Assembly: GCA_937927915.1 (NCBI GenBank)
Contig: CALGKB010000002.1
Location: 248,001-312,000, forward strand
DNA from: an uncultured Pseudanabaenaceae cyanobacterium
Lineage (GTDB): Bacteria; Cyanobacteriota; Cyanobacteriia; Pseudanabaenales; Pseudanabaenaceae
Length of the DNA stretch: 64,000 nucleotides
Reading direction: 5' to 3'
In this document: in pieces, positions 2,589 through 41,400 of the stretch
Position numbering within the stretch: the first letter of the stretch is position 1
How the letters are laid out: each line of letters opens with the position of its first letter
Notes under the pieces: model-generated
Databases searched by the model: none
Told to the model about the DNA's origin: nothing
What the model saw: the letters and a program-made list of their open reading frames with translations, nothing else
Position numbers and translations under genes: made by a program

Positions 2589-2696
2589 TTCCATCTACAC
2601 CTCGAATCCAGAAAGCGCAATTTCTATCAGAGAAAGTGAAAGCATGAACAGCCATAGTTCCAAGCAGGGGAGTGTAGAGCAATACTAGTTTCTAGA

Positions 2697-2714
2697 ACTA
2701 TTTAGTGATATAGT
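2697..2714. promoter_or_regulatory. Putative sulfide-regulon operator, arsR-type gene
   Basis: ACTATTTAGTGATATAGT: half-sites ACTAT and ATAGT separated by 8 bp. The centre lies about 17 bp before the regulator's first ATG, a position that suits autorepression. The same 18-bp layout occurs upstream of sqr and of the dioxygenase gene. TATAGT within it could serve as a -10 element. Confidence 0.65.
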
Positions 2715-2721
2715 AATGTAG

Positions 2722-3147
2722 ATGAGTAAATTGCCAGGTGTGATGAAGAGTAGCCTTAGCAGTATCACCAGTACCCTCAATTCTGCCGAAGACTGTAACA
2801 TATCCAAGCTGACTCCAGAAGCGCTGACTCTACTGGCAGACTTTTTCAAGGTTTTATCGGAAGTCAGTCGTCTGCAAATTATCTGCTCCCTCAAGCGCGG
2901 GGCAAAAAACGTCACGGAGATTATGCAGGAAACAGATTTGGGACAAGCGAATGTCTCTAAACACTTGAAAATCCTCACCCAAGCCGGCGTGGTTGCCAGG
3001 GAACAACGGGGAGTCTGCGTTTACTATCGCATTGCTAACCCCTTTCTCTTTGACCTCTGTGACCTCGTCTGTAAAGCCCTTAGTTTGCAAGTGGAACAGC
3101 AAAGTCAACAGGTGCAAGAGTTATCCCAATTGGGGCAAAAAAATTAA
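2722..3147 (+). CDS. ArsR-family regulator, likely persulfide sensor
   Basis: 141 residues with a winged-helix ArsR fold at about 33-120. The recognition helix is around QANVSKHLKIL and the wing around RGVCVYYRI. The classic ELCVCDL metal site is absent. Cys55 sits in IICSLK, matching the first sensing cysteine of the persulfide sensors SqrR and BigR as I recall them. Cys113 and Cys117 lie in the last helix, close to where the second sensing cysteine is expected. Cys25 and Cys99 are extra. The sulfide genes next to it, and the palindrome just before it that is repeated at those genes, point to a repressor relieved by sulfide or persulfide. A Synechocystis ArsR-type repressor (SuoR) beside sqr is a known precedent. 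Start uncertain: the Met at codon 8 is possible. Confidence 0.82.
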   Translation: MSKLPGVMKSSLSSITSTLNSAEDCNISKLTPEALTLLADFFKVLSEVSRLQIICSLKRGAKNVTEIMQETDLGQANVSKHLKILTQAGVVAREQRGVCVYYRIANPFLFDLCDLVCKALSLQVEQQSQQVQELSQLGQKN

Positions 3148-3167
3148 ACGGGGGCAGCAGCTCCCCC
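3137..3167 (-). terminator. Terminator of sqr
   Basis: Five G and five C face each other across an 8-base loop just after the sqr stop. On the minus strand a T-rich run follows. The T run overlaps the end of the convergent regulator gene. Confidence 0.5.
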
Positions 3168-3174
3168 TAGTAGT

Positions 3175-4485
3175 TTAGTAGCGGTGGACTAGTTGATTGA
3201 GGGGCTTAAAGATGTCTGCCTCAAAAGCTGCTCCCTTCAACATCCGATTCCAGTACAACCAGGGCAGAACGTGTACCTTAGCCAAGTACATAGAGTAGCG
3301 CTCCTTGGTGGGATCAAGGGGGAAGGAGGGAGCCAGTTTGCCGTCGTAGGCAAATTCCGCCATGATTGCCGAGTTGTAGCCCGTAATCAGAGGACAGCAG
3401 GTATAACCATCATACCGCGCTGGTAAGGGTTTGCCCCGCATTGCTGCTAGCAGGTTTTCCGCCAGGACAGGGGATTGTTTGCGGGCTGCCGCTGCCGTCT
3501 TGGAAGTAGGTAGAGAAGAAGCATCCCCCAGGGAAAAGACATTGGGATAACGAGTGTGCTGCAGAGTTGCTTTGTCCACATCTACCCAGCCGCCAGGACC
3601 AGCCAAGGGACTTTCCTTGATGAAATTAGGAGCACTCATGGGTGGGGTGACATGGATCATGTCGTAGTGAATGCTGACTTCCTCTACCCCGTTGTCCGTA
3701 GTCACATCAAAGATGGCTTCCTGGGTATCTGCCTTGATCTCCTTGAGGTTGTGCTTGAACTTGACGGTTATGCCCCGCCGTGCCACTATTTGGTCGAGGG
3801 AGGCAGAGTAAGCAGGAACAGCAAACATGCTCCCCCCTGCGGTGCAGAACATAACCTTGGTATTCACACCCACACCGCTCTTGCTCTTGAACCAATCATC
3901 CGCCATATACATAATCTTCTGGGGCGCACCACCGCACTTAATAGGAGTAGCAGGATAGGTGAAAATAGCATTGCCGCCCTTGAACTTGCGAATGGTCTCC
4001 CAGGTATAGGGGGCATAGTCCTTGGAGTAGTTGCTGGTAACACCACCTTTACCGATAGCTTCTTTTAAGCCCTTGATTAAATGCCAGTCAATCTGAATAC
4101 CAGGACAAACAATCAGGTAGTCATACTTGATCACCTGCCCTGCCTCTGTAACCACTTGGTTTTGATCCGGATCAAGTTTAGCCACCTTGGCTTGAATCCA
4201 TTTTGCCCCCCTGGGGATCACGTCCTTCTGGTCGCGCACAAAGTTACCGATCGGAGCAATGCCACCACCAACTAATGTCCATCCAGGTTGGTAGTAATGT
4301 TTGTCCGAGGGTTCAACGATGGCTATGTCTAGCTTACGATCGCGCTTGAGGAGTTGAGCGGCGGCACTAATACCTGCTGCTCCTCCCCCCACAATAACCA
4401 CCTGATGCTTCAGCGGGGGCAGAGGGGCTGTTTCTGCTGGCTTGGAACCTCCTTGGGCTTGATCAATAGTCGATGTTACCGTCAT
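3175..4485 (-). CDS. sqr: Sulfide:quinone oxidoreductase, type II-like
   Basis: Oxidises sulfide and passes electrons to membrane quinones, giving persulfide or zero-valent sulfur; a membrane-associated flavoprotein. It has 436 residues. The FAD-binding VGGGAAGIS is at 32-40 and the second FAD contact (SLGDASS) near 318-324. Cys184 in PIKCGGAPQK and Cys363 or Cys364 in GYTCCPL match the two redox cysteines of the mitochondrial-type (type II) enzymes. Cys127 and Cys214 are further cysteines. The C-terminus is hydrophobic and aromatic (VLPWLYWNRML), as needed to sit on the membrane. It is convergent with the regulator gene and divergent from the dioxygenase gene. A palindrome resembling the regulator's own operator lies 38 bp before its ATG. 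Confidence 0.93.
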   Translation of the reverse strand: MTVTSTIDQAQGGSKPAETAPLPPLKHQVVIVGGGAAGISAAAQLLKRDRKLDIAIVEPSDKHYYQPGWTLVGGGIAPIGNFVRDQKDVIPRGAKWIQAKVAKLDPDQNQVVTEAGQVIKYDYLIVCPGIQIDWHLIKGLKEAIGKGGVTSNYSKDYAPYTWETIRKFKGGNAIFTYPATPIKCGGAPQKIMYMADDWFKSKSGVGVNTKVMFCTAGGSMFAVPAYSASLDQIVARRGITVKFKHNLKEIKADTQEAIFDVTTDNGVEEVSIHYDMIHVTPPMSAPNFIKESPLAGPGGWVDVDKATLQHTRYPNVFSLGDASSLPTSKTAAAARKQSPVLAENLLAAMRGKPLPARYDGYTCCPLITGYNSAIMAEFAYDGKLAPSFPLDPTKERYSMYLAKVHVLPWLYWNRMLKGAAFEADIFKPLNQLVHRY

Positions 4486-4522
4486 TGCTAAACTCGTTAT
4501 TTAGAACACATAATCATTCTGT

Positions 4523-4540
4523 ACCATATTCCCACATAGT
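4523..4540. promoter_or_regulatory. Putative sulfide-regulon operator, sqr side
   Basis: ACCATATTCCCACATAGT. It has the same 5-8-5 layout as the two other sites, with one mismatch in the left half (ACCAT for ACTAT). It lies 38 bp before the sqr start codon, in the divergent region. Confidence 0.55.
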
Positions 4541-4587
4541 TATATTACCCTGCTTTCTAAAGAAATCCTTAAATTTTGGCGTGAGTC

Positions 4588-4616
4588 TTGACAATCGTAA
4601 AAGGTTTAACTATATT
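4588..4616 (+). promoter_or_regulatory. Sigma70-type promoter of the dioxygenase operon
   Basis: TTGACA (4588-4593), 17-bp spacer, TATATT (4611-4616): a near-consensus promoter about 85 bp before the dioxygenase ATG. Its -10 box lies inside the palindrome at 4609-4626, so a bound repressor would cover it. Confidence 0.75.
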
Positions 4617-4626
4617 ACCATATAGT
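4609..4626. promoter_or_regulatory. Putative sulfide-regulon operator, dioxygenase side
   Basis: ACTATATTACCATATAGT: perfect 7-bp arms (ACTATAT and ATATAGT) around 4 bp. It is the best of the three copies and overlaps the -10 box of the promoter. Confidence 0.7.
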
Positions 4627-4700
4627 AATTTAACGGAGTGATGGGAAAGGGTAGAAGGCATTTAGTCTTCTCCCTGTTTTTAAGAGTCTAGGAGGTAGAT

Positions 4701-5393
4701 ATGCTGTTCCGTCAATTGTTTGATTACGAGACTTATACTTACACCTACTTGATTGCTGACCCCCAGACCAAGGAGGCGATGCTGGTGGATAGCGTTCTAG
4801 AGCAGGTTGATCGGGATGTGCAGTTACTCAAGGAGTTGGGGTTGACGTTGCGCTATGCCGTTGAAACTCATGTCCATGCTGATCATATTACGGGGGCAGC
4901 CCGTCTGCGGGAGTTGACTGGTTGTCAAGGGGTTGTACCCAAAGGGGCAGATGTAGCCTGTGCTGATCTTTTCCTGGGTGACGGGGATGTGTTAGAGATG
5001 GGTGCAATTCGCCTAGAGACGATCGCTACGCCTGGGCACACGGATAGTCATGTGGCTTACTTGGTCAATGGAACACACCTGTTGACGGGGGATTCTTTGT
5101 TCATTCGCGGTTGTGGGCGCACGGACTTCCAAAGCGGTGATGCTGGCGCTCTCTACGATGTAGTGATGCAACGTCTGTTCACCCTGCCCGATGAAACTTT
5201 GGTCTACCCTGGGCATGACTATCGCGGGCATACAGTGAGCACGATCGGGGAAGAGAAGATGTTCAATCCTCGCTTCAAAGACCGCACCAGGGAGCAGTTT
5301 ATCGAGTTCATGGCTAATTTGAATCTGCCCGATCCCAAGAAGATTGCTGAAGCTGTACCCGCTAATTTGCAGTGCGGCAAAGTCGCAGCTTAA
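4701..5393 (+). CDS. Persulfide (sulfur) dioxygenase, ETHE1-type
   Basis: Non-heme iron enzyme of the metallo-beta-lactamase fold that oxidises glutathione persulfide to sulfite. 230 residues. The metal motif THVHADH (57-62) is followed by His113 in TPGHTDS and Asp131 in TGDSLF, the expected iron ligands. The GCGRTDFQ stretch (138-144) is typical of ETHE1 dioxygenases rather than glyoxalase II. An AGGAGG ribosome site precedes the ATG by 5 bp. It is the first gene of a plus-strand operon: the rhodanese follows after 12 bp, then the exporter. It would take the persulfide made by the divergently transcribed SQR. Repression by the ArsR-type protein through the operator over its promoter is inferred. 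Confidence 0.92.
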   Translation: MLFRQLFDYETYTYTYLIADPQTKEAMLVDSVLEQVDRDVQLLKELGLTLRYAVETHVHADHITGAARLRELTGCQGVVPKGADVACADLFLGDGDVLEMGAIRLETIATPGHTDSHVAYLVNGTHLLTGDSLFIRGCGRTDFQSGDAGALYDVVMQRLFTLPDETLVYPGHDYRGHTVSTIGEEKMFNPRFKDRTREQFIEFMANLNLPDPKKIAEAVPANLQCGKVAA

Positions 5394-5405: not shown

Positions 5406-5957
5406 ATGACCACAATGGAGCAAAACTTGCGCTTAATCAGTGCAGTGGAACTGAAGCAGAAGCTAGACAATAACCAGGTCCTCCTAATTGATGTGCGGGA
5501 GCCGGGGGAGTTCAGTGCAGAGCGCATTGCGGGGGCAAGATTGATGCCGCTATCTAAGTTCGACCCCAAGCGCATTCCTGATACAGACAAGGAAGTGGTG
5601 CTCTACTGCCGCAGTGGCAAACGATCGGAGATGGCAGCGCAAAAACTTCTGGCAGAAGGTTGGCATTCTGTGACTAACTTGGAAGGGGGAATTACGAGCT
5701 GGAAAGCAGCAGGGTTACCCATCGACAAGGATGCCAATGCGCCTATTAGTTTGATGCGCCAGGTACAGATTGTAGCTGGTTCTCTGGTGTTGGCTGGCAC
5801 AGTTTTGGGTGCTACTCTCAATCCCCGTTTCCTGTTCCTGAGTGGGTTTGTTGGTGCTGGTCTTGTCTTTGCCGGTATCACAGATACCTGTGCATTAGGT
5901 ATGCTGCTATCCAAGTTGCCCTACAATCAAAGAGCGGGTCAGTCGTGGAATTCCTAG
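5406..5957 (+). CDS. Rhodanese with C-terminal DUF2892 membrane anchor
   Basis: Moves a sulfane sulfur atom between persulfides, sulfite and thiosulfate. The 183-residue protein has one rhodanese domain (about 8-108). The catalytic Cys68 is in the loop CRSGKRS, and IDVREPGEF is the usual early motif. Residues 115-170 form a DUF2892 module with two membrane helices (about 121-138 and 142-160), so the rhodanese domain should be tied to the cytoplasmic face of the membrane. That would place it near SQR. A GGAGG ribosome site lies 6 bp before the ATG. The gap to the dioxygenase gene is 12 bp. It probably converts SQR or dioxygenase products to thiosulfate, but direction and acceptor cannot be read from sequence. 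Confidence 0.9.
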   Translation: MTTMEQNLRLISAVELKQKLDNNQVLLIDVREPGEFSAERIAGARLMPLSKFDPKRIPDTDKEVVLYCRSGKRSEMAAQKLLAEGWHSVTNLEGGITSWKAAGLPIDKDANAPISLMRQVQIVAGSLVLAGTVLGATLNPRFLFLSGFVGAGLVFAGITDTCALGMLLSKLPYNQRAGQSWNS

Positions 5958-6042: not shown

Positions 6043-6861
6043 ATGCGGGAAATTTTGGGCTATATTTTCGCTTCTCTCATAGGTATTTCTTTGGGTCTAA
6101 TTGGGGGTGGGGGGTCCATATTGACTGTACCCGTATTGGTCTATGTCATGGGTGTCAATGCTACTCTAGCAACTGCTTACTCCCTGTTCATTGTCGGTGT
6201 CACTGCTCTGGTGGGTTGTATCACTTATTTCCAAAAGAAGCTGGTTAGCGTGCCGACAGCGATCGTTTTCTCTATTCCTGCTTTTACTTCTGTATTTTTA
6301 GTGCGTAAATTTCTCATCCCTGCTATTCCCAAGGAAATTATTGCCATTGGGGGATTTATGCTGACGCGGGATATTCTGCTGATGCTGGTGTTTGCAGGGT
6401 TGATGATTTTTGCTTCTGTATCCATGATCAAAGATGATAAGGACAAGGAAGGAGAGGCACCTGATGATGAGCAACCCCATGCATTTAATTTGCCCCTCAT
6501 TTTTGGGGAGGGGGTTGTTGTCGGTGCTTTGACAGGGTTAGTAGGTGCAGGGGGGGGATTTATGATCATTCCTGCCCTGGTGCTGTTTGCCAAGTTGCCG
6601 ATGAAAATGGCAGTCGGAACTTCTCTCCTCATTATTGCTGCTAAGTCTTTAATTGGTTTCATTGGCGATGTCACTAATCCCACAGAAGCGATCGATTGGA
6701 ACTTACTGCTCTCCTTTTCTTTTATTGCCTGTGTAGGGATTTTTGTGGGTGCTTATTTATCCACTTTCATCCCTGGTGCTAAACTCAAGAAAGGGTTTGG
6801 CTGGTTTGTGGCAGTCATGGGTGTTTATATCATTGCCAAGGAGCTTTTCTTCGGTAAGTAA
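6043..6861 (+). CDS. TauE/SafE-family sulfite or organosulfur exporter
   Basis: 272-residue integral membrane protein with about eight helices. The two related halves carry the family's glycine motifs: GGGGSILTVPVLVY near residue 20 and GAGGGFMIIPALVL near 170. A charged cytoplasmic loop lies near 130-145. TauE/SafE proteins export small sulfur compounds such as sulfite or sulfoacetate. Next to a dioxygenase that makes sulfite, export of sulfite or thiosulfate is the natural reading, but this is inference. A terminator-like hairpin separates it from the rhodanese gene. A decayed copy of the same gene follows directly, so the pair arose by tandem duplication. Confidence 0.85.
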   Translation: MREILGYIFASLIGISLGLIGGGGSILTVPVLVYVMGVNATLATAYSLFIVGVTALVGCITYFQKKLVSVPTAIVFSIPAFTSVFLVRKFLIPAIPKEIIAIGGFMLTRDILLMLVFAGLMIFASVSMIKDDKDKEGEAPDDEQPHAFNLPLIFGEGVVVGALTGLVGAGGGFMIIPALVLFAKLPMKMAVGTSLLIIAAKSLIGFIGDVTNPTEAIDWNLLLSFSFIACVGIFVGAYLSTFIPGAKLKKGFGWFVAVMGVYIIAKELFFGK

Positions 6862-7458
6862 TGGCACACATTATAGGTTATTTCCCTAGGATTGATGGGC
6901 GGTGGGGGTTTAATTCTCACTGTACCTGTGCTGGTATATGTCGTGGGGGACCACTGCCTATTCCCTCTGTATTGTGGGAATTACTGCTGTAGCTGGTTCT
7001 AGTAGCTATTTACAAAAACGCTTAATTAGTCTGAAAACAGCGATCGTTTTTTCCCTTACCTACCTTTGTCTCTGTCTTCTTGGTGCGGATTCCCAAGGAA
7101 ATTCTACAGTGATGGTAGTTTTTGCCTCTGTCTCTATGATCAGGGACAAGCAGAAGGGGAGCTATCCCTCATCACATAGTGGAAGCGGGCGGTGGTTTTA
7201 TGACCATCCCTGCCTTGGTCACTTTTGCCCAATTACCTATGAAAAAAGCAGTGAGTACTTCTCATTGGCTTTGTGATGATTGGAATTTACTTATTTCTTT
7301 TTTCTTTCTCTTTTATTGTCTGTATAGGTATTTTGGTCGCCTCCTATCTCTCCAATTTCATCTCTGGGGCAAAGTTGCAGAAGGGCTTTGGTTGGTTTGT
7401 GGTGGTCATGGCTGTCTGTAGTCTGTACAAAGAGATCACGGGTTGCAGGGACCCTTGA
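6862..7458 (+). pseudogene. Decayed tandem duplicate of the TauE/SafE exporter
   Basis: The segment matches the intact exporter just upstream in order, but is broken into several frames. First comes a GLMGGGGLILTVPVLVYV-like stretch near 6890-6945. The next frame has AYSLCIVGITAVAG and KTAIVFS, then VVFASVSMIRD. A third has GGGFMTIPALVTFAQLPMKKAV near 7185-7255. The last is the closing part (SGAKLQKGFGWFVVVMAV) near 7345-7415. Compared with the intact gene, about 20 codons between two helices, most of the central loop and the IGDVTNPTEAI region are deleted. Several frameshifts prevent a full product. Similarity remains high in the core, so the decay looks fairly recent. Confidence 0.85.
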
Positions 7459-7522: not shown

Positions 7523-8524
7523 GTGCAGCCACTACTAGAGGTCAGAGGGGTATCCCTGCAGTATGCGGGGCGGAAGCAGAGAGCAGTAGATAATGTCAGT
7601 TTTAGTCTGGGTCAGGGAGAAATTTTGGCTTTGCTAGGTCCTTCAGGCTGTGGTAAAACTAGCTTGCTGCGCTTGATCGCAGGGTTTGAAACTCCCCAAG
7701 CAGGCACGATCGTGGTCAATGGGCAGGTATTGTCGAGTCCCGATCGGTGTGTTCCGCCTGAGGAGCGGCATATTGGGATTGTCTTCCAGGATTTTGCCCT
7801 TTTTCCCCATCTAACAGTCTATCAGAATGTTGCCTTTGGCTTGCAGCGTCCCCAACCGGCGGCGGTGATGCAGGTGCTAGAACAGGTAAGATTGCAGGGG
7901 TTCAAGGACCAGTACCCCCACCAACTCTCAGGGGGGCAACAACAGCGGGTGGCATTGGCAAGGGTGTTGATTACTAATCCTGTTTTGGTGCTCCTAGATG
8001 AACCCCTTAGTAATATTGATGTGCAGTTACGCAGTAGTTTACGGCGGGAGTTGAAGGAGATTTTGCAAAAGTCGGGTCAGACTGCTATTTGGGTGACCCA
8101 TGACCAGGAGGAGGCAATGGCAGTGGCGGATTGGATTGCAGTAATGCAGGGGGGAAAGTTAGAACAGTTGGATACGCCCCAGACTATTTATTGCCATCCC
8201 AAAACTCCCTTTGTTGCCCAATTTGTTTCCCAGGCAAATTTGTTGCCCCTCCCCATGCCAGACACTAAAACAATTGTGGGGCTGGAAGCATTACCGCCAA
8301 CGGCAAATGGCAGGCAATTGATGATTCTACAGGAGGATGTCTGTCTGCGAGAAGACGAAAATTCAGACTGTATAATTACCGATCGGGTTTTTCTTGGCAG
8401 GGAGTGGATTTACTATGTGAAATTGCCCTCTAGTCAGGAGTTAATTGCTCGCATTACTAACCGCTGTGACCCCTTGCCTGTGGGGACAAAAGTAGCGATC
8501 GGAGGTAAATGGCAGGTGATTTAA
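7523..8524 (+). CDS. ABC transporter ATP-binding protein, iron/polyamine-type importer family
   Basis: 333 residues. An ATPase domain (1-235) is followed by a TOBE-like C-terminal domain. Walker A GPSGCGKTS is near 40-48, Q-loop FQDFALFPHL near 87-96, signature LSGGQQQR near 135, Walker B VLVLLDEP near 157, and switch His in WVTHDQ near 192. The overall pattern fits the FbpC/FutC-PotA group that drives import of ferric iron, spermidine or similar solutes. No permease or binding protein gene is adjacent; in other cyanobacteria the FutC ATPase gene is likewise separate from its partners. The substrate cannot be assigned. The start is GTG, as no better ATG precedes the conserved LLEVRGVSL. Its end overlaps that of convergent murF by 4 bp. 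Confidence 0.88.
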   Translation: MQPLLEVRGVSLQYAGRKQRAVDNVSFSLGQGEILALLGPSGCGKTSLLRLIAGFETPQAGTIVVNGQVLSSPDRCVPPEERHIGIVFQDFALFPHLTVYQNVAFGLQRPQPAAVMQVLEQVRLQGFKDQYPHQLSGGQQQRVALARVLITNPVLVLLDEPLSNIDVQLRSSLRRELKEILQKSGQTAIWVTHDQEEAMAVADWIAVMQGGKLEQLDTPQTIYCHPKTPFVAQFVSQANLLPLPMPDTKTIVGLEALPPTANGRQLMILQEDVCLREDENSDCIITDRVFLGREWIYYVKLPSSQELIARITNRCDPLPVGTKVAIGGKWQVI

Positions 8525-38400: not shown

Positions 38401-41400
38401 TTTTCCAGTTGGGAGATACTGCCCAGAATGGAAACGCCAGGGAAGTCATCATTAACGATCGTGCCTGTCTGCTGAGTCGTACCCACCATGACATTGGTAG
38501 CCAACAACTGTACTGTGAAAGTTTCATCATTTTCTGGGATGGTATCACCACTAACTGGGACGATGATGGTAGCTAGACTTGCACCAGGGTTGAAGGTAAC
38601 TACACCGCTAGTTTGGGCATAGTCCATGGCATCCATGGCGGTACCATCCATGGTGCTAAAGGAAACGGTTACAGGTTGGGTGGTCGTCTCAGACAGACTG
38701 ATGGTAAATAAGAAGTTAGTTGTACCTGAGTTGCCTTCGTTTGCTGAGAAACCATTGATCAAACTAACAGTAATTTGATCAGTGTCATCGTTAATCAAAA
38801 CTGCCGTTGCCTGACTAGTAGTAGAAATACTTGCCAACATATCAGGGCTGTCTACCATCGTCAGTTGCACGAAGAAGTCTTCATCAGGCTCGTTCATGGT
38901 GTCCCCATTGGCAGTCACGGTAATCAGCGCAGTGGAAGTACCAGGAGTAAATACCACCGTCGATGCCAAACTGTTGTAATCACCAAGGGCAGACATAGCA
39001 ATGCCATCGACTGTGGCGTAGCTAACAGTAATTGGCTGCGCCGCTGTGTTGTTTGCTCCGCTACTCAAAGAGATGGTGTAAACAAAGGTCGGGGAGTTGG
39101 CAACATTGCCCTCTAACGCAGTCAGTGAACCTTGCAACGATACTGTCACAAAGTCATCATTAACGATCGTGCCAAATGCTGTAGTTTTGGCAATAGGAGC
39201 GTTAGAGGCATTGATAACTACCGCGAAAGTTTCATCAGCTTCAGGAATGCCATCTCCAGAGATAGTGACAGGCACTGTGACACTGGTCTGCCCAGCAGGA
39301 ATTACAGCTGTTGCCATGTTGATAGGCGCAAAGTCACTGGTATCTAATGCTGTGCCGCTCTGGGTGGAGTAGGTAACGGTAGTAGGTAAGGTACTTGACT
39401 GTGCCAGGGTGAAGGTAAAAATAAAGTTGTTGTTGCTGTTACCTTCTGTTTGCATTACGTCAAGGATGCCTAATCCAGGCAGGTCATCGTTAATCAAAAC
39501 TGCCGTTGCCTGGGTTGTAGTACCAAGACTTGCCAACATGTTAGGGCTACTAACACCAGTCAATCCTACAAAGAAGTTTTCATCTGGCTCGTTCATGGTG
39601 TCCCCATTGGCGGTAACCGTAATTGGTACTGTCAAACTACCCGCGGGAACAACGATCGTTGTTGTCAAACCGTTGTAGTCATTGTCTGCTGTGGTAGCCG
39701 AGTTGTCTATTGTGGCATAGCTCACTGTGATAGGAGTGGAAGAGGTCTGACTTAAAGAAATGGTGTAGGTAAATGTGGGTGAGCCAGAAACATCTCCTTC
39801 TAACTGGGAGATAGAACCTTGCAACGATACTGTCACAAAGTCATCATTAACGATCGTGCCCGTTGCCACAGTGGTACCAGGCATTCCGTTAGTGCCATCA
39901 ATTTGCACTAGAAATGTCTCGTTTGCTTCAGGAATACTATCTCCAGAAACCGTGACCGTAACGGGAAGAACTTGGGTTGTCGGCAAAATAGTGACAACCT
40001 GCCCTGAAATAGCTGTGTAGTCTGTACCAGCACTAGCAGACACGTCCATGGTACTAAAAGTTACAGTAATGGGCAGGCTATTGGTAGCGTCTAAGCTGAG
40101 GGTAAAGACAAAGTTAGTGTTTGAGCTTGTACCTTCAGCAAGACTTAACCCTAAGATACTCACTTGGGAAACGTCATCATTCACGATCGTGCCTGTCGCA
40201 ATACTAGGAGCGGCTAGCATTCCTTGGTTGTTGCCTGGACCAGTGATGTTTTGCAGGGCAACGGTGAAGGTTTCATCCGGCTCGGCACTTGTGTCATCGA
40301 TCGCTGTTACAAATACGGTTGCCAAAGACTGCCCAGGCGCAAAAGTGACTACACCATCGTTATCCATGTAATCGCTTCCAGCCGTAGCAGTTCCGTCATT
40401 AGTAAGATAACTGACCGTTACTGGAACATTGGCTGTTTTATCAAGACTAATAGTGAATGCAAAGGGAGTGGTGAAAGCGGCATTCTCTGTAGCTGATGTG
40501 CCGCCAATAATGCTGACGTTCAGGGCATCATCATTCCCGATCGTTGCCTGAATCGAAGTAGTACCCATGGTCTGTGCCGCCATGATCGACACATTGAAAG
40601 TTTCGTCAGCCTCTGGTACTGTGTCACCCAAAATGGTAACTGGTACAGTAAAGGTTAAGGTATTGGCAGGAATAGCGATCGTTTGCGTAAATGGCGTGTA
40701 GTCCGTGTTATTTGCCGTACCGTCTGCTAAAGCAAAAGTTACCGTGGTTGCAGTAGGACTTGTAGTAGAAAGACTCAGGGTGTAAATAACGTTATTAGTT
40801 GCGTTCATTTCTGCAAAGGAGTTAGGTCCTAGCAGAGTAACAGCGGGATCACTATCATCATTAACGATCGTGGCTGTGCCAGTGCCATTGACAATACTCG
40901 GTGTGACCCCAGGAGCCATGGCATTGGTGAGCATGACCGTAAAGGTCTCATCCGCTTCTAAAACTCCATCCCCAGTGACAGGAACTGTCACCACAACAGA
41001 CGTTTGCCCTGCAGGGAAGGTAACATTCATGTTTGTGGCACCATAGTCCATGTCACTTGTCATGGCAGTGCCATCTGTCGTACTAAAGCTGACAGTTACC
41101 GGGAAGGGAGCGGATTCGCTTAGGGTAATGGTAAAGAGGAAAGGTGTAGTTCCTGTGTTTCCTTCGTTAGCTGTGAAAGTCTGGTTCAAAAACCCGATCG
41201 TGGGGGCATCGTCATTGATAATAGTGCCAGTAGCCTTAGTAGTACCCTCTAACATGAAAGCACTGGTTCCACTGAGCATGACCTCAAAGGTTTCATTTTT
41301 TTCGGGGGTGGTATCACCTGAGACTGTAACGGTAATCAATGCAAAGGTTTGACCGGAGGGAATAACAACTGTGGTGCCAGCAGAGAAATCCATAGCAGGG

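Follow-up and report, generated by a model that had tools for sequence, protein, structure and literature searches.

What controls the sulfide genes that surround an ArsR-type regulator gene in this DNA, and do they answer to one shared operator? The window, that is, the whole stretch of 64,000 nucleotides analyzed here from an uncultured Pseudanabaenaceae cyanobacterium, contains the following features. Judged by the relatives of its proteins, the genome is cyanobacterial.

2692 to 2711, plus strand: weak candidate operator of arsR1, CTAGAACTATTTAGTGATAT; third-best score in the window, 12.2 bits; position as in the arsR operator of relatives
2722 to 3147, plus strand: ArsR1, an ArsR/SmtB-family regulator, 141 aa as listed; Pfam HTH_5 and NCBIfam HTH_metalloreg above cut-off
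3175 to 4485, minus strand: sqr1, sulfide:quinone oxidoreductase (SQR), mitochondrial type; among solved structures, closest to mitochondrial SQR, E 2e-126
4526 to 4545, minus strand: predicted operator of sqr1, ATATAACTATGTGGGAATAT (minus strand); three mismatches to consensus, 19.9 bits, second in the window
4588 to 4616, plus strand: promoter of the dioxygenase operon, TTGACA, 17 bp, TATATT; read directly
4612 to 4631, plus strand: main predicted operator of the dioxygenase operon, ATATTACCATATAGTAATTT, over the -10 box; one mismatch to consensus, 29.3 bits, best in the window
4701 to 5393, plus strand: persulfide dioxygenase, ETHE1 type; ETHE1 4chl E 2e-72, 4ysb E 4e-79
5406 to 5957, plus strand: rhodanese with a YgaP-like membrane segment; Pfam Rhodanese, YgaP-like_TM
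6043 to 6861, plus strand: TauE/SafE-family exporter, with which the operon probably ends; Pfam TauE, gene order the same in relatives

A 20-bp dyad at the sulfide genes

When the regions upstream of the corresponding genes were compared among other cyanobacteria, a 20-bp dyad emerged, ATATTACYAT/ATRGTAATAT (the slash marks its center). In relatives it reads ATATTACYATATRGTAATNT at the dioxygenase gene and, in many genera, ATATYACTATATGGYAATAT or CTACTACCGTGTGGTAATATAATG at arsR; a copy on a Chroococcidiopsis plasmid is extended to a near-perfect 30-bp palindrome, CTACCATATTACCATTTGGTAATATGGTAG. Position-by-position conservation of the dyad is partly circular as a measure, since the sites were chosen by their match to the consensus. 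A scoring matrix was trained on 60 sites, taken only from other genera, and was applied to the window and to selected loci. It ranked the dioxygenase, sqr, and arsR sites first, second, and third in the 64 kb, and the first two exceeded the top score reached in a simulated 2.4-Mb genome (14.1). The dioxygenase-operon site at 4612-4631 is conserved in relatives, and both this site and the sqr site are kept in a relative of the same genus (L077). A short core, ATTACY-N4-RGTAAT with two mismatches allowed, was rejected as unspecific (342 matches).

The earlier note had proposed a small sulfide regulon, and comparative genomics gives good support to an operator common to arsR, sqr, and the dioxygenase operon. 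The self-repression that it included is less firm. The arsR1 site at 2692-2711 has five mismatches to the consensus, its frame is only partly settled, and about 11 sites scoring as high are expected in a random genome of the same size. In the same-genus relative the site is worse, with seven mismatches by hand count and no match within five by search. Autoregulation is therefore the least secure part of the proposal. We take the arsR site, which is an exact match in the 18-bp frame discussed below, to be the weakest true operator, convincing only locally, and autoregulation of arsR1 may be weak or absent. A candidate -10 box of arsR1 is TATAGT at 2709-2714, in which case a start at ATG 2722 would leave almost no leader. 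The start of arsR1 is uncertain: the ATG at 2743, in frame and preceded by AGGTG, has the better ribosome-binding site and is possibly the real start.

Right after tauE, at 6864-7456, lies a second tauE-like stretch broken into short frames, likely a recent pseudogene; its counterpart in the same-genus relative (L077 6746-7534) is one long match. Farther on in that relative, a sequence at 7567-7586 with a matrix score of 13.3 stands just upstream of an ABC transporter gene.

Distribution of the dyad across genomes

All of the following genome counts ignore kinship between genomes. With up to three mismatches, the dyad occurs at three sites in the window's own genome, namely at the dioxygenase gene, at sqr, and at a second sqr-arsR locus, all of them sulfide loci, compared to none for the control. 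Among 58 relatives, a search with up to two mismatches found 41 sites in 26 genomes, again compared to none for the control. Placement is nearly exclusive to sulfide genes: 34 of the 41 adjoin genes for arsR1, dioxygenase, SQR, type-I SQR (SQR2), or rhodanese, while four precede pcxA in one genus and three fall within coding sequence of a single genome. When 390 genomes of the class, the earlier relatives included, were searched with at most one mismatch, 36 genomes had sites and the control had none; of the 22 loci that were new, 21 adjoin the same sulfide genes. The extent given to the regulon by the earlier note was too small: a further site precedes the second, suo-type sqr-arsR locus. The idea of a regulon appears to be right and to reach far beyond this one genome. 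No dyad was found upstream of the sqr gene on pAQ7 of Picosynechococcus 7002.

Some loci point to possible further members. The one exception among the 22 new loci is L127 1501-1520, where the dyad precedes an open reading frame with heterodisulfide-reductase-like cysteine motifs, a possible further target. The pcxA gene, for a CemA-family proton extrusion protein, is preceded by the dyad in four genomes of one related genus (L114, L116, L118, and L120). In the L114-L118 genomes, arsR1 or type-I sqr lies in islands with psbA-like D1 genes.

A second sqr-arsR locus and the choice of regulator

The third strong site of the genome, at C2:171042-171061, is located about 35 bp upstream of SQR2, in a locus (about C2:169400-173200) orthologous to Synechocystis suoS-suoR. 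SQR2 shares 67% identity with the Synechocystis pSYSM enzyme, and among solved structures it is closest to type I-like bacterial SQRs; ArsR2, which follows it, shares 69% identity with the product of the SuoR gene in the pSYSM operon. The sqr and arsR genes are divergent from DUF302 and chromate-transporter (ChrA) genes in the pSYSM gene order, and the locus shares DUF302, ChrA, and DUF3365 with suoRSCT as well as the dyad itself: at the equivalent place, the Synechocystis suo promoter carries ATATAACTACATAGTTGTAT (20.2 bits). Because the same type of operator stands before the suo-type locus, the two sulfide systems of this genome are probably under shared control. According to one report, the sqr and arsR of the Synechocystis plasmid operon enable oxidation of sulfide and are expressed during that of arsenite (PMC5061849).

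No published operator resembling the dyad was found for cyanobacteria in the literature searched, the scope of which did not include the 2014 Synechocystis suo paper, which may describe its site. SuoR is reportedly a repressor that answers both sulfide and arsenite.

An alternative is that the SuoR-type ArsR2, rather than ArsR1, chiefly occupies the sites, possibly responding to arsenite besides sulfide. The two regulators share the recognition helix QANVSKHL, the suo promoter with its dyad adjoins the SuoR gene, and one genome without ArsR1 (G011) retains the dyad before its dioxygenase gene; the ArsR protein of that genome that comes closest to ArsR1 matches it weakly and is of a different type. 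On the other hand, presence of the dyad correlates with that of ArsR1, being found in 25 of the 44 genomes that have ArsR1 compared to 1 of the 14 that lack it (Fisher P 0.0014 over the 58 genomes, a statistic that ignores relatedness). In many genomes the dyads adjoin arsR1 itself, and the same-genus genome G002 has both the sites and ArsR1 and lacks a close SuoR-type match. We therefore consider a leading role of ArsR2 unlikely and retain ArsR1 as the probable regulator. ArsR1 belongs to a clade different from that of SuoR: it is about 40% identical to ArsR2, and it has a cysteine, C55, that is absent from ArsR2 and SuoR.

ArsR1 compared with known regulators

Assignment of ArsR1 to the ArsR/SmtB family is straightforward (Pfam HTH_5, 48.6 bits against a cut-off of 22), and its AlphaFold model supports the ArsR fold, matching the structures of SqrR, BigR, CzrA, and SmtB. 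Every one of the 46 ArsR1 orthologues keeps two cysteines, C55 and C113. The first aligns with C41 of SqrR and C42 of BigR, in the helix preceding the recognition helix. The second lies in the last helix and, by alignment, about 8 residues before the alpha-5 position occupied by SqrR C107 and BigR C108, so that the known dithiol geometry may not apply. C55 and C113 nevertheless are likely to form a persulfide-sensing dithiol.

Several known systems offer points of comparison. First, SqrR of Rhodobacter capsulatus and YgaV of E. coli are likewise ArsR-family repressors of sulfide genes. The SqrR operator is also a 16-bp dyad of equal spacing, ATTC-N8-GAAT (deduced) compared to ATTA-N8-TAAT here; the difference is one base, the fourth of each half, and here the motif sits inside the 20-bp dyad. 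The proteins are only about 30% identical, with the alpha-5 cysteine earlier in ArsR1. Second, BigR of Xylella and Agrobacterium recognizes the -10 region; under its control are a persulfide dioxygenase and a sulfur transferase (PMC5823870). The present system resembles the bigR operon (Blh sulfur transferase/dioxygenase) in the dioxygenase target, the -10 site, and the aligned first cysteine. In contrast, ArsR1 scores 41.7 bits against the BigR family cut-off of 155, the second cysteine is unaligned, and sqr is a predicted target here. Third, RexT of Nostoc is also a cyanobacterial redox-sensing ArsR-family protein, but its operator, ATTCG-N15-CGAAT, and its vicinal disulfide (PMC8960804) are unlike the dyad and ArsR1, in which no vicinal cysteine pair was found. 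The system is thus predicted to work like those of SqrR and BigR and yet to be a variant of them, because it departs from that group on two counts.

Proposed mechanism

The three sites most probably serve as operators in a sulfide regulon that is conserved among cyanobacteria and is under a repressor released by sulfide or persulfide. A dimer of the neighboring ArsR1 most likely binds the 20-bp dyad and, when bound, would block two promoters, that of sqr and that of the dioxygenase-rhodanese-TauE operon; it would repress its own gene weakly. Placement of the sites over or next to -10 regions favors repression, as for BigR (PMC5823870) and for YgaV, whose site in E. coli covers the RNA polymerase recognition region (PMC9774250). 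A persulfide or polysulfide derived from sulfide would then modify C55 and C113, ArsR1 would leave the DNA, and the genes would be turned on.

A wider reading, which we hold to be about equally likely to stand or to fall, is that of a class-wide cyanobacterial regulon with its own operator, ATATTACYAT/ATRGTAATAT, and an ArsR clade whose C55/C113 geometry is unlike that of SqrR and BigR. Such a regulon would bring the suo sulfide/arsenite locus under the same switch as sulfide detoxification and, in one genus, pcxA.

Many cyanobacterial sqr genes have an arsR-like regulator as neighbor, and further study of the genes and of how they are expressed has been called for (PMC5061849). The dyad provides a precise predicted operator, and a list of targets, applicable to any cyanobacterial genome; control of sulfide tolerance and of sulfide-driven photosynthesis thereby becomes directly testable, with the Synechocystis suo promoter as a convenient experimental case.

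The 18-bp palindrome as a shifted reading

The earlier note had named another sequence, the palindrome ACTAT-N8-ATAGT, as the operator. The note gave its positions, sequences, and mismatch counts correctly (2697-2714 and 4609-4626 exact, 4523-4540 with one mismatch), and the copy at 4609-4626 does overlap the -10 box of the dioxygenase promoter (TTGACA at 4588-4593, 17 bp, TATATT at 4611-4616). The palindrome is thus exact at two of three promoters, and the same-genus relative also has it at its dioxygenase promoter. However, its frequency is that of background. Exact copies number 3 in the 2.4-Mb genome, and the reversed control has 4; allowing one mismatch raises these counts to 58 and 50, respectively; with up to two mismatches the window has 36 where 22 are expected. 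In most of the 58 relatives the frequency is similar to or below that of the control. The third exact copy in the genome, at C1:154857, is intergenic between unrelated genes.

The frame also argues against it. Among 37 arsR sites, the best symmetry axis is 10.5, that of the 20-bp dyad (score 4.5), and the axis of the palindrome, 14.5, ranks second (2.8); the dyad is centered 4 bp away. In the palindrome's frame the matrix score at arsR is -37. Its left arm is lost at arsR of the same-genus relative, which has ACCAA instead of ACTAT, and its right, outer arm in relatives is largely the -10 box, positions 18 to 23 of the arsR site being TATAAT-like. That this palindrome is itself the operator is accordingly very improbable, and it is best read as a shifted view of the dyad.

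Equally improbable is a likeness due to shared AT-rich promoter elements with no specific repressor: each site contains a -10-like hexamer and the arsR site by itself is not significant genome-wide, but control matches are zero in 390 genomes and the dyads lie almost exclusively at sulfide genes.

A longer form of the palindrome, ACTATAT-N4-ATATAGT, was rejected as a search pattern for its slight excess over the control (11 compared to 5). The 18-mer was also matched at 39137 and 39824 (region 39137-39953), which suggests a repeat with copies about 687 bp apart.
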